This document shows positions 34,508 through 40,403 of a stretch of 41,068 bases of DNA, piece by piece; the stretch's first letter is position 1, and each line of letters opens with the position of its first letter. Both the position numbers and the translations under genes were made by a program. The notes under the pieces are model-generated. The model was not told the origin of the DNA. It worked only from the letters and a program-made list of their open reading frames with translations, and made no database searches. The stretch is from assembly GCA_947478405.1 (NCBI GenBank), contig CANJVX010000027.1, positions 1-41,068 on the forward strand. The letters are read 5' to 3'. The stretch is from Beijerinckiaceae bacterium. GTDB lineage: Bacteria; Pseudomonadota; Alphaproteobacteria; Rhizobiales; Beijerinckiaceae.

Positions 34508-35242
34508 TCAGCGTTCGCCCTGACGAGGACCAGTCAGCTTTTTCCGCTGCACCCACCGAAAACCTTCGTGCCGCGTGATGACCGCCATATCGATGGGCCC
34601 GCCCACGGTCTTGGGCTGCACATCGGCACGGAAACGCACATAACCGACTGTCGCATCTGCCAGAAAGCGCGCCAGTGCAACCGCATCATGGATGGGCATA
34701 CCAGGTGTCACCAGTGTCGGGCTTGAGGTTTCGTTCATGCCTTCGAGTGTGAAGTCATCACTCATCAGGCGATGCAGGCATTCACCGGCACCTTCCCAGC
34801 AAACGCCATATTCGGTGGGCGACCAAACCTGCGACACGCCCACGCCCTGACTGGAATCGAAAACCAGGTTCCAGACTTCCGGCGTGTCAGAAAGCGCAGA
34901 ATAACCCGCAATGATAAGCGTGGAGCGCAGCTTGGCCACCTGCATGGGGGCCATTGAACGCAGATAATCCTGCAAACGATGCACCACGGATTCAACCGTA
35001 TAATTTGTCTTGTCGAAAGATCCTTGACCCTTGCGGTTCAGCGCACCAAAATCTTTCAGCACATCAATAAAGGCTTTGTTGTTGATCGCAGCGTCGCCTG
35101 CCACCAGCACACCAATCGGTAAACCCTTGATGAGCTGCATGGTTTTTTCGGCCGAATAATAGACCTGCCCACGATGCTCCACCGCGCTGTCGGATGCGAG
35201 CACGACGCCGTCTTGTACGGAAATGGAAATAACAATTGTCAA
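34508..35242 (-). CDS. Proteasome-like Ntn hydrolase
   Basis: From TTG 35242 the protein reads M-TIVISISVQDGVVLASDSA. Counting the Thr as residue 1, Asp17 falls exactly where proteasome beta subunits have catalytic Asp17, and Lys32 (SAEKTMQ) is one position from Lys33. GVLVAGDAAINNKAF matches the following beta-strand and helix of the fold. The 244-aa length is close to Anbu-type proteasome relatives, but the sequence is not an obvious Anbu or HslV. The TTG is preceded by GAGTGG at 6 nt, whereas the in-frame ATG codons at 35281 and 35278 lack an SD and would add 13-14 residues; these could alternatively be a propeptide. Removal of Met would expose Thr1. No ATPase partner is adjacent. Fold is confident, function inferred. 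Confidence 0.75.
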   Translation of the reverse strand: MTIVISISVQDGVVLASDSAVEHRGQVYYSAEKTMQLIKGLPIGVLVAGDAAINNKAFIDVLKDFGALNRKGQGSFDKTNYTVESVVHRLQDYLRSMAPMQVAKLRSTLIIAGYSALSDTPEVWNLVFDSSQGVGVSQVWSPTEYGVCWEGAGECLHRLMSDDFTLEGMNETSSPTLVTPGMPIHDAVALARFLADATVGYVRFRADVQPKTVGGPIDMAVITRHEGFRWVQRKKLTGPRQGER

Positions 35243-35363
35243 TGCAAACCACTCGAAGCTTAAACGTCGCCGTCTCATCATCGCGGCGGCTCGGATTTAT
35301 GAAACATCTATAATGAGCCGACAAGAGCCTGCTCAAGTCAGACATTGCTTCGCTCAGAAAAAA

Positions 35364-36039: not shown

Positions 36040-37176
36040 ATGCTCATCATCGACAATGCAACCGTCAGCGAAATCCTGTCCATGAAGGACTGCATTCGCG
36101 TGCAGGAAGAGGCCTTCCACAAATTGCCGGAAGGCGGCGCCATTCATCGCCCGCGCATCGACATGTATTTTCCTTGCGAGCGCGAGGATGGTTATTTCCG
36201 CTGGGGCTCGATGGAAGGTGCAAATGATGGCTATTTCGCCATTCGCATGAAATCCGACATTATCACCTGGCCGAAAACTGCCGATGGCGGCTGGACCGAA
36301 GACAAGTGGTGCGGAGAACCAGGCACTTATTGCGGCGTCATCTATCTCATCTCGACCAAAAATGCTTTGCCGCTGGCTTTCATCAATGATGGCGTGTTGC
36401 AGCATATGCGTGTGGGGGGTGGTGCCGGCATTGGCGTGAAATATCTCTCGCGTGAAGATTCCCATGTGGTTGGTATGCTGGGATCAGGCGGCATGGCGCG
36501 CACATTCTTGGAAGCTTTCTCCTGCGTCCGCGATATCAAGCAATGCAAGGTCTACAGCCCCAACCCAAAGAACCGCGAAGCCTTTGCGGAAGAAATGTCG
36601 AAAAAACTCGGCATTGAAGTGATCGCCGTCGACAATCCAAAAGCGGCACTCGATGGCGTGGATATTGTCTCTTCGGCCACCGACAGCATGAAGCCCGTTT
36701 ATGATGCCGATTGGCTGCGCCCCGGCCAGCACGTCACCAATCTGGGCCGCCGCGAAATGCCTGATGCTGCGACCAATAAATTTGACGTGGTCGTGCGCCA
36801 GGGCACAGCAGGCCTGCAAATGAAACAGACGGAGCGCTTCCAGGCTGAGCGCGGCCTTTCGCCTGCGGCCTATATCGGCGGTAGCGTTGAAGAGATGAAG
36901 CGTATTCCTGAAAAAAATCCGCAGCCTGGTTTTGGCGGCGACAATCCCGACTTCATGGATCGCGGCAAGGGCGGCGACAAGCCCGACTTTGCTGATCTTG
37001 TGACCGGCAAATGCAAGGGCCGCACAGATCGCGACCAGATCACTTTCTATCGCAATGTCGGCAATCAGGGCCTGCAATTCTCCTCCGTCGGCGGCCTCGT
37101 CTATGAGGAAGCGCGCCGGTTGAAGCGGGGCCGTGAAATCCCGACAGAATGGTTTCTGCAAGATATTCGTGACTGA
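36040..37176 (+). CDS. Ornithine cyclodeaminase/mu-crystallin family protein, copy 1
   Basis: A 378-aa NAD(P)-dependent enzyme of the OCD/alanine dehydrogenase/ketimine reductase superfamily. The dinucleotide-binding loop is LGSGGMAR (147-154), and the substrate-side block INDGVLQHMRV holds Arg124. By eye, the position of the usual catalytic Lys (GVK in relatives) is an Arg here (AIRMKSD, Arg69); the same holds in copy 2. It is longer than canonical OCDs (about 315-350 aa), partly due to an insert near residues 285-325 with a doubled GGDxPDF. GGGAGG precedes the ATG. Product and substrate are unknown; deamination or reduction of a cyclic imine or alpha-amino acid is plausible. Confidence 0.85.
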   Translation: MLIIDNATVSEILSMKDCIRVQEEAFHKLPEGGAIHRPRIDMYFPCEREDGYFRWGSMEGANDGYFAIRMKSDIITWPKTADGGWTEDKWCGEPGTYCGVIYLISTKNALPLAFINDGVLQHMRVGGGAGIGVKYLSREDSHVVGMLGSGGMARTFLEAFSCVRDIKQCKVYSPNPKNREAFAEEMSKKLGIEVIAVDNPKAALDGVDIVSSATDSMKPVYDADWLRPGQHVTNLGRREMPDAATNKFDVVVRQGTAGLQMKQTERFQAERGLSPAAYIGGSVEEMKRIPEKNPQPGFGGDNPDFMDRGKGGDKPDFADLVTGKCKGRTDRDQITFYRNVGNQGLQFSSVGGLVYEEARRLKRGREIPTEWFLQDIRD

Positions 37177-37188
37177 CGGAGATTGATC

Positions 37189-38229
37189 ATGTTGCGCCGC
37201 CTTGCCCCTGCTATTGCTCTCATCACTTTTGCAGCTCTGGTCTTGCCCGCTCACGCCCAAAGCGACGCGGATTTTTACAAGGGCAAAACAATGTCGGTGC
37301 TGATCGGCTTTGGGCCGGGCGGCGTGAACGATGTCTGGGCGCGCCTTCTGGCGCGCTACATGCCCCGCCACATGCCACATGAACCGACCATGGTGGCACA
37401 AAATATGCCGGGTGCGGGGACGCTGAAACTGGCCAATCATCTGGCCACTGGCGCCCCGCGCGATGGCTTGGTCTTTGGCCTGATCAGCCGCGGCATCCCG
37501 CTGGAGCCGCTGCTGGGGGGCGCCAATGTGCAGTTTGATCCGCTGAAGATGAACTGGATCGGCTCACCGGATACAGACACAACAGTGTGCGCCACGCGCA
37601 AAGATGCGCAAGTGCAGAAGCTCGCTGATCTGCGCACAATGGAACTGGCTGTTGGTGCCACAGGCTCTGGAGCCGACAGCGCGATCTATCCGGAATTTCT
37701 TGCCGAATTTCTCGGCTTCAAATTCAAGACGATCAAAGGCTATCCCGGCTCCAACGAAATCGTCATGGCAATGGAGCGCAAGGAAGTGCAAGGCATTTGC
37801 ATGGCCTATTCATCCGTTGCCCGTACACGCCTGTTCAATGACGGTGAGCTGAACCTGCTCTTCCAGGCCGGGCTTGAAAAAGACCCCGCCATTCCAGCCT
37901 CTGTGCCCCTGACGACGGAAATGACCGCCGGCAACCAGCAAGACACGGATGCGCTGCGCCTATTTCTAGCCCGCGCGGCTTTGGGGCGGCCATTTATGGC
38001 GCCACCTGGCGTGCCCGAAGGGCGCATTAAAATCCTGCGCAAAGCTTTTGACGATACAATGGCCGACAAGGCTTTGATTGATGAAGCCCAAAAGCTGAAA
38101 CTGGCGGCCGAACCGATCTCCGGCGAGCGACTTGCGCAGATCATTGCCGGGATCTACACGACTCCTCCACAGGTCGTACAGCGCGTCACCAAGATTCTGG
38201 GCAATGTGTCCGGGCCGGCCCAACAATAA
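37189..38229 (+). CDS. TctC/Bug-type periplasmic solute-binding protein
   Basis: A 346-aa exported protein with the signal peptide LRRLAPAIALITFAALVLPAHA, then the TctC (Bug) fold: FYKGKTMSVLIGFGPGGVND at the start and the PGAGTLKLANHL block. These receptors bind carboxylates and work with TctA/TctB in tripartite tricarboxylate transporters. No tctA or tctB is in the operon, so it is an orphan receptor here. ATG 37189 is set by GGAG 7 nt upstream; the in-frame TTG at 37183 is less likely. It lies 12 nt after OCD copy 1. Confidence 0.9.
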   Translation: MLRRLAPAIALITFAALVLPAHAQSDADFYKGKTMSVLIGFGPGGVNDVWARLLARYMPRHMPHEPTMVAQNMPGAGTLKLANHLATGAPRDGLVFGLISRGIPLEPLLGGANVQFDPLKMNWIGSPDTDTTVCATRKDAQVQKLADLRTMELAVGATGSGADSAIYPEFLAEFLGFKFKTIKGYPGSNEIVMAMERKEVQGICMAYSSVARTRLFNDGELNLLFQAGLEKDPAIPASVPLTTEMTAGNQQDTDALRLFLARAALGRPFMAPPGVPEGRIKILRKAFDDTMADKALIDEAQKLKLAAEPISGERLAQIIAGIYTTPPQVVQRVTKILGNVSGPAQQ

Positions 38230-38256
38230 GAAACGCGCGGAAAAGAAAGCAGCGGA

Positions 38257-39303
38257 ATGGCAGGAGCCGAACCTCTGGGTGCGCCGAAAGGTTTTGAGGC
38301 TGTGCTGCCAGGGCTTGCTTTGGCTGGCGCACTCGCGCTCGGTACCTATCTGCTGGCACCCTTCATTGCGCCCGTCGCACCCCTGCCCGCGCTTGTGATT
38401 GCTCTGATTGTCGGAATCTGGCTGCATCCACTTGCCGCGCGTCCGCTGTTTGCGCCGGGCCTGCGTTTCTGTGTCTCAACCATCTTGCGCATCGCGGTTG
38501 CGCTGCTGGGCCTGCGTGTCGCCTTGGGCGATATTGCGGCGCTTGGACTGACCACGGCAATCATTGTCATGCTCGCCATGGCGGCAACCATTGTGTGCGG
38601 CCTCTGGCTTGCGCAGGCCCTTGGCCTGTCGCGTAGTTTTGGTGCACTCGCGGGCGTGGCAACGGGTGTGTGCGGAGCCTCCGCCGCCCTCGCCACATCG
38701 AGCGTATTGCCTACCTATCCGGGCAAGGATGCCGACACCGTCTTCGTGATTGTCGCCGTCAATCTGCTCTCGACCATAGCCATGGTGGCCTATCCGCCAC
38801 TGGCGCAAGTACTCGGGCTTAGTGAGACGGCCACGGGCACGCTTCTGGGCGGTACAATTCACGATGTGGCGCAGGTGGTGGGGTCCGGCTATGCTGTCTC
38901 GGAAACAGTGGGCGCCTCAGCCGTCATTGTGAAATTGTTCCGCGTGCTTCTGCTCCTGCCGGTAATCCTGATCATCGGACGCCTTTTTGCACAGCCAGCC
39001 AATGACGCGAAAGTGCCATTGCCGATCTTCGCTTTCGTCTTTCTAGCGCTTTGTCTGCTGAACAGCGCTATGCCGCTTGTACCAGGATTGATGCCCATCT
39101 ATACGCCCGCCAAGGCCATCGCAGGCACGCTTTCCAGCTGGGGCTTGCTCATCGCTATCGCCGCTCTTGGGCTCAACACATCGATTACCTCGATCACAAA
39201 ACTCGGTATCCGCCATATAGCGACGGTCACGGGCACGACGCTGGTTATTCTGGCTTTTGTCGCCACAGGCCTCGCCTTGAGTTCGCAGCTAGGCATCCTG
39301 TAA
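38257..39303 (+). CDS. YeiH-family (UPF0324) putative anion exporter
   Basis: A 348-aa polytopic membrane protein with about ten hydrophobic helices. The family blocks are visible: LRIAVALLGLRVALGDI, GVATGVCGASAALATSSVLP, TLLGGTIHDVAQVVGSG and LNTSITSITKLGIRHI. Members are annotated as putative sulfate exporters, and some occur near sulfonate-utilisation genes; biochemical proof is limited. It starts 27 nt after the TctC-type gene and is followed by OCD copy 2, so it probably exports a product of this operon's pathway. Confidence 0.88.
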   Translation: MAGAEPLGAPKGFEAVLPGLALAGALALGTYLLAPFIAPVAPLPALVIALIVGIWLHPLAARPLFAPGLRFCVSTILRIAVALLGLRVALGDIAALGLTTAIIVMLAMAATIVCGLWLAQALGLSRSFGALAGVATGVCGASAALATSSVLPTYPGKDADTVFVIVAVNLLSTIAMVAYPPLAQVLGLSETATGTLLGGTIHDVAQVVGSGYAVSETVGASAVIVKLFRVLLLLPVILIIGRLFAQPANDAKVPLPIFAFVFLALCLLNSAMPLVPGLMPIYTPAKAIAGTLSSWGLLIAIAALGLNTSITSITKLGIRHIATVTGTTLVILAFVATGLALSSQLGIL

Positions 39304-39326
39304 CTTAGAGAAAAAAGGAGACGATC

Positions 39327-40403
39327 GTGACGCTGATCTTGTCGAATGACGATGTCGAAAACCTTCTCTCCATGCCAGATTGCATCGAAGCATTGGAAAC
39401 CGCCTATCTTGATCTTGCAGAAGGACGCGGTGTCTCGCGCCAGCGCTCTGATTGCATTACGCCCACGACCTGGCACGAAGATGCCATCTACGGCCTGAAA
39501 TCCATGGATGGTGTGGTGCCAGCCTTGGGCGTCAGCGCCATTCGCATCAATTCCGACATTGTCACCAATCCGCTGGTCGGCAATTCGCGTCGCCGCGTCA
39601 AAGTGCCCGCCGCGCCAAATCAGCGCTATGTCGGGCTTGTGCTTCTCTTCTCGACACATAATGGCGAACCACTCGCCATTTTTCCCGACGGCGTATTGCA
39701 ACATATTCGCGTGGGCGCCACCAACGGTTTGGGCATAAAATACATGGCGCGGCCTGATGCGCGCTCAATTGGCATTTTGGGATCAGGCTGGCAGGCCGAA
39801 ACACAACTCACCGCAGCCTGCGCGGTGCGAAAGATCGAAACCATCCGCTGCTTCTCGCCCAATAAAGACAATTGCGAGGCTTTTTCTGCGCGCATGAGCG
39901 AGGTTTTGGGTATTGAAGTGCGCCCCGTCGGCCAGCCCGAAGATGCCATTGCGGGTGCTGACATTGCGATGTGTGCCTCAAATTCGATTGACCCTATTTT
40001 CTTCCAGCAATGGATTGAGCCCGGCATGCATCTGTCCTCAATCAAAAAACCCGAGATTGAGCCCGCCGCCATCCGCGCCGCCGACAAGATTGCCGTCCAT
40101 ACCCATGACACCGCGCCGATACTTGTGGTGGCGAAAGATGCCAAGTTCCGCGAAAGCGCAAAGCAAGCGGGATGGAATGCAGCCAAACAACTCGACTTCA
40201 AAGCCTTCCCAACTTTGCCTGACCTGATTGCCCATCGCGTGACCGGACGCGATGCGCCAGAACAAGTCACCTGCTTCCTGAACAATCTGGGCCTGGGCTA
40301 TCAATTCGCCGCGGCTGGATCCGTGATCTATCGCCGCGCAAAAGAGCGCGGCATCGGCAATGAATTGCCCACCGACTGGTTTACCGAGACCGTACATCCC
40401 TGA
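39327..40403 (+). CDS. Ornithine cyclodeaminase/mu-crystallin family protein, copy 2
   Basis: A 358-aa paralogue of the gene at 36040. It shares the block DGVLQHIRVG (Arg128), the nucleotide loop LGSGWQAE (151-158), the SPNK segment and the C-terminal ELPTDWF. At the place of the usual catalytic Lys it also has Arg (AIRINSD, Arg73). It lacks the GGDxPDF insert of copy 1. The start is GTG at 39327 with AAAGGAG 7 nt upstream. Two divergent copies in one operon suggest either two steps in a pathway or a heteromeric enzyme. Confidence 0.85.
   Translation: MTLILSNDDVENLLSMPDCIEALETAYLDLAEGRGVSRQRSDCITPTTWHEDAIYGLKSMDGVVPALGVSAIRINSDIVTNPLVGNSRRRVKVPAAPNQRYVGLVLLFSTHNGEPLAIFPDGVLQHIRVGATNGLGIKYMARPDARSIGILGSGWQAETQLTAACAVRKIETIRCFSPNKDNCEAFSARMSEVLGIEVRPVGQPEDAIAGADIAMCASNSIDPIFFQQWIEPGMHLSSIKKPEIEPAAIRAADKIAVHTHDTAPILVVAKDAKFRESAKQAGWNAAKQLDFKAFPTLPDLIAHRVTGRDAPEQVTCFLNNLGLGYQFAAAGSVIYRRAKERGIGNELPTDWFTETVHP

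Follow-up and report, generated by a model that had tools for sequence, protein, structure and literature searches.

A putative stand-alone proteasome-like enzyme is encoded in a 41,068 nt stretch of Beijerinckiaceae bacterium DNA (contig CANJVX010000027.1, assembly GCA_947478405.1), the whole of which is termed the window here. The gene (34508..35242, minus strand) has a TTG start, specifies 244 amino acids and is defined by its open reading frame, an alignment, a structural model and a fold match. Judged by sequence and model, the protein likely belongs to the proteasome-like N-terminal nucleophile (Ntn) hydrolase family as a compact enzyme that stands alone, most probably within the PMI series (proteasome homologues with multiple insertions; PMC8665760). 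It is most likely a real proteasome-like enzyme, as predicted, and adds one member to a kind that was described only recently and has no assigned function. New here are the compact members found in phage contigs, the patchy occurrence in the genus and a host genome without hslVU.

Start codon and coding character

The TTG start codon occupies positions 35242-35240, is followed directly by the Thr codon, and opens a minus-strand frame whose stop ends at 34508, as an earlier note on this DNA had described. An in-frame ATG is situated 13 codons upstream, at 35281. The homologue set comprises 42 loci in GTDB genomes, the closest being metagenome-assembled genomes of Beijerinckiaceae with 89% identity. 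Start codons were compared between the window and 33 of the 42 loci. The nine excluded are L013, L036, L038 and L040-L043, with an unmatched N-terminus; L009, which deviates before residue 10 and is a possible exception; and L034, where an ATG precedes Thr but the frame is broken. In all 34 readable sequences the codon immediately 5′ of Thr is a start codon (GTG in 19, TTG in 10, ATG in 5), and in 17 of them no other start codon is reached before the upstream stop. In L004 and L033 that stop is only two codons 5′ of the start. Because a start adjoins Thr throughout and half of the sequences have no upstream alternative, TTG is taken as the true start and the ATG at 35281 is ruled out. Conservation beginning at the upstream ATG, with a variable Thr, was the outcome that the earlier note had set against its own proposal; Thr proved invariant. 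Several Roseomonas-type genes also display, at the normal spacing from the start, a stretch that resembles AGGAGG.

Synonymous codon changes outnumber replacements in 10 of 10 comparisons with near relatives (e.g. 84 vs 27), so that by this sequence measure the open reading frame is a real gene under strong purifying selection. In each of three Roseomonas-type genomes the matches lie on two different contigs (L029/L037, L040/L041 and L042/L043), and the L037 copy has lost the reading frame of the family close to the C-terminus.

Predicted active site and fold

Thr numbering is used for the catalytic residues, all encoded on the minus strand. The predicted nucleophile is Thr1 (codon ACA, 35237..35239), which is invariant in alignments A1, A2 and A3, where A2 is A1 minus four of its 34 rows (L007, L021, L029, L037). 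Asp17 (35189..35191; D18 in Met numbering) is at the proteasome Asp17 position, and Lys32 (35144..35146; K33 in Met numbering) at that of proteasome Lys33. Thr, Asp and Lys are invariant in the 34 rows of A1 and the 21 rows of A3. The catalytic Lys is residue 33 in Roseomonas-type homologues, and its place at 32 in the window protein reflects a hairpin one residue shorter; the Asp17 and Lys32 spacing that the earlier note had read from the sequence holds. Gly48 (35096..35098), likewise invariant (G49 in Met numbering), is presumed to be the oxyanion glycine and to correspond to Gly47 of the proteasome.

In structure comparison the predicted model of the window protein matches the proteasome beta fold, in agreement with the Ntn fold proposed earlier; an unrelated fold did not emerge. 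This match, together with a Thr/Asp/Lys triad invariant in 34 rows, excludes a chance resemblance. The model has helices at residues 58-68 and 83-97, a short S3-S4 hairpin, and a C-terminal strand (227-232) followed by a disordered tail. The H3-H4 linker (34694..34762, minus strand; residues 161-183, Met numbering) is 23 residues long, and is disordered and of low confidence in the model. The linker has 41 residues in the model of a phage relative, L081, and forms two helices (182-189 and 194-208). A Foldseek comparison with viral models gave 12 matches at E <= 0.001, the top one being a phage 'Proteasome beta type-2 subunit'.

Two results weigh against this assignment: of the five models that AlphaFold gave for the window protein two are poor, with a mean predicted local distance difference test score (pLDDT) of 57.8 and 54.2, and the Pfam Proteasome match falls below the cut-off (16.5 vs 22.4 bits). 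Furthermore, the C-terminal 70 residues used alone as a query retrieved no proteasome, with one chance match at E 2, and the assignment of the C-terminal half therefore depends on the predicted fold.

Relation to other proteasome-like families

The protein resembles HslV in its Met-Thr start, its T1/D17/K33 spacing and its bacterial occurrence, but HslV has ∼175 amino acids in this comparison vs 244 in the window protein. NCBIfam returned no HslV family for the window protein, and in the window's genome TIGR03692 (the NCBIfam HslV model) gave 0 matches over the cut-off and no hslU was found over the cut-off. Membership in HslV is ruled out by the TIGR03692 result and by a profile match (compact family vs HslV, E 3.4e-5) that covers only the first ∼110 residues. 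The Anbu profile was built from six of 14 loci, which we take to be Anbu; the start motif missed the other eight. The compact family matches it weakly (E 1.9e-7, probability 94) compared with E 5.8e-26 for the long family described below, and an Anbu query of the window's genome found no match at E <= 0.001, which together rule out Anbu. Anbu carries a C-terminal helix, H5, for coiled-coil contacts, according to the available part of PMC8665760, and the window model shows no such helix. The earlier statement that the protein is neither HslV nor classical Anbu is thus upheld by profile comparisons and genome queries. Paired alpha and beta subunits of the 20S type are not seen in the window's genome either, where Pfam Proteasome matches the window gene and one weak candidate (L080, E 0.146), neither over the cut-off; L080, read by eye, looks like an unrelated enzyme.

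The closest family by profile-profile comparison is one of long proteins (414-431 residues), with both ends in common. All 30 compact members scanned match phrog_5990, a phage family of 427 positions with no assigned function, and because of this the long family, at the level of sequence models, is phrog_5990. Four of the 30 additionally match phrog_1040 ('peptidase HslV family'). Unlike the compact proteins, long members have extra segments. In a tree, the compact and the long rows part with 100/100 support. Its root is set at the midpoint, the program flagged long branches in it, and L083 (interrupted frame), L085 and L086 are left out. Long members are found in a Porphyromonas phage, a Providencia phage, a Ruegeria megaplasmid and several genomes of the class. 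The loci are L044 (1939-3183), L045 (1885-3180), L046 (2074-3324), L066, L068, L070, L071, L073 and L076, and the three named records annotate the gene as a hypothetical protein. A Pfam scan of long members found Proteasome for L044 only, below the cut-off (E 0.0061).

A class-wide sample gave a match in 14 of 240 genomes, two of them compact (the window's genome and G138) and eight long, as read from the translations; the others are presumably two HslV, one Anbu-type and one another homologue. At L072 (G204), a 268-residue open frame has a Met-Thr-type proteasome-like start and by eye is neither HslV nor Anbu.

Placement among published homologues

The suggestion in the earlier note of an undescribed branch is borne out only in part. 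Fuchs, Alva and Lupas (2021; PMC8665760) report 22 uncharacterised families of stand-alone prokaryotic proteasome homologues, and in the sections of that paper available these have no AAA+ partners and no functional clues from context. Propeptides are confined there to proteasome beta and HslV, and T1/D17/K33/Gly47 are conserved in the homologues. PMI-1 to PMI-6 form part of group II; an H3/H4 insertion is described for PMI-2 to PMI-6 and an insertion after H1/H2 for PMI-3 and PMI-4, and PMI-4 occurs also in phages. The window protein shares with these the lack of a propeptide, the T1/D17/K33/Gly47 core and its stand-alone nature without an AAA+ partner. In the models an H3/H4 insertion is apparent, as the 161-183 linker in the window protein and as two extra helices in L081. 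The long S3/S4 insert described for PMI-5 and PMI-6 and the long insert after H1/H2 of PMI-3 and PMI-4 are missing. Because of the long H3-H4 linker and the existence of a longer phage family, the window protein most probably belongs to the PMI series (group II), by anatomy and by the published description in those sections. On the same description the compact proteins look like PMI-2 (or PMI-1), and the long ones like PMI-4.

No function is given for any prokaryotic proteasome relative in the available sections of the 2021 paper, and literature searches covering part of the literature found no functional study of PMI-type families. A phage gene called BPH is mentioned in the accessible part of PMC8953757, and the 2021 paper appears in the reference list of PMC13022661, as far as that source was available. 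Of interest is that the window copy offers a convenient test case: it is short, propeptide-free, dispensable in its genus and alone in a genome without HslVU.

Possible mechanism and alternative explanations

Thr is a permissive second residue for Met removal. Methionine aminopeptidase would remove the initiator Met and expose Thr1, so that no propeptide would be needed. Thr1 would act as nucleophile and base, its hydroxyl attacking the peptide bond with help from Lys and Asp, as in proteasomes. As pointed out earlier, no ATPase (including the AAA family) or tagging gene is near: none was found among the eight neighbouring open reading frames scanned. As the clades have no partner gene in common and the region of H3-H4 contacts is changed, the enzyme might perhaps need no dedicated ATPase and act, as a small oligomer, on substrates that are unfolded or short. 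Weighing against the absence of a partner, some neighbouring open reading frames recur in five to eight of the Roseomonas-type loci (clusters 16, 17, 22-25 and 30-34), and these loci may have a group-specific partner gene; for 24 loci the gene lists were inspected only visually.

The lack of an unfoldase partner among the neighbouring open reading frames would also suit a specific protein ligase or transpeptidase, rather than a protease. Archaeal connectase, as described in the available text of PMC8665760, is a monomeric proteasome relative that acts as a ligase and has the Thr1 chemistry and fold in common. Connectase is said there to be without H1/H2 and to carry an insert of two helices between S3 and S4; unlike it, the window model has H1/H2-type helices and a short hairpin. 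No substrate motif is known, and a ligase of this type appears doubtful. A somewhat better case, though still an improbable one, can be made for descent from a phage gene that was domesticated and first served virion assembly or lysis, for example head-protein processing. Proteasome-like genes are present at six loci in viral contigs. A portal gene directly follows L083, with a major head gene further downstream; terminase genes are ∼1 kb downstream of L082, and a gene for a transglycosylase-like protein is ∼0.3 kb downstream of L081. These relatives beside packaging genes offer a first hint, from context, of a role. The tree places three phage rows immediately outside the set of 29 bacterial rows, and the match of all 30 members to phrog_5990 points the same way. 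On the other hand, L084 adjoins HNH/ParB-like genes rather than head genes, the viral loci are only six, the neighbours in the genus (rpiA, HAD phosphatase) are ordinary chromosomal genes, and the rooting and long branches of the tree leave the direction of transfer unsure. L085 (1414-2088) and L086 (3665-4318) are shorter proteasome-like genes in viral contigs; L086 seemingly has two such genes within ∼2 kb, the second near 2069 on the minus strand, and one resembles that of L085. A role in antiphage defence was rejected, with 0 of 30 members matching PADLOC at E <= 0.1.

Replacement of HslV in genomes without HslVU was suggested by the window's genome itself, which lacks HslV and has 198 bp (L123, G000:C1:607-806) where a congener has hslV and hslU (L117:7117-9017). 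The flanks of this gap are presumably the hisB side and the trpS side. The hslVU place was inspected in the window's genome only. Seven of the 37 genomes of the genus lack both HslV and HslU; several of these seven are incomplete, as assemblies in the genus are. The gene proves independent of this absence (3/18 genomes with the gene vs 4/19 without; Fisher p = 1), and a replacement, already disfavoured, is very unlikely. A non-enzymatic or decaying protein of proteasome fold is scarcely credible as well: patchy occurrence (18/37) and broken frames in L034 and L037 fit decay, but the triad is invariant in 34 rows and purifying selection is strong in all 10 comparisons. One speculative reading, which we consider quite unlikely, is that Alphaproteobacteria captured a phage-derived Thr1 enzyme. 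It would process or ligate virion proteins without an unfoldase in phages, and would have its own specific substrate in chromosomes such as this one without HslVU and Anbu, as the sole proteasome-fold enzyme there. Such a functional class would be distinct from HslV, Anbu and connectase.

Distribution and genomic neighborhood

Of 61 related genomes, 18 have the gene, and every one of these is among the 37 of the genus, where its occurrence is patchy; among good-quality genomes it is in 8 of 43. In the window it is surrounded by rpiA, a HAD phosphatase gene, a 112-amino-acid open reading frame, two ornithine cyclodeaminase-type genes, a TctC receptor gene and a Cons_hypoth698 gene. Neighbour clusters place the HAD phosphatase in 19, the 112-amino-acid frame in 18 and rpiA in 15 of 64 genus loci, which may overlap between genomes and include the window's genome more than once. 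The recurring gene order looks like ordinary chromosomal synteny, and a conserved operon was rejected on this basis. At 36040-40403, the two ornithine cyclodeaminase-type genes flank the TctC-type receptor and Cons_hypoth698 genes and form a possible catabolic cluster.
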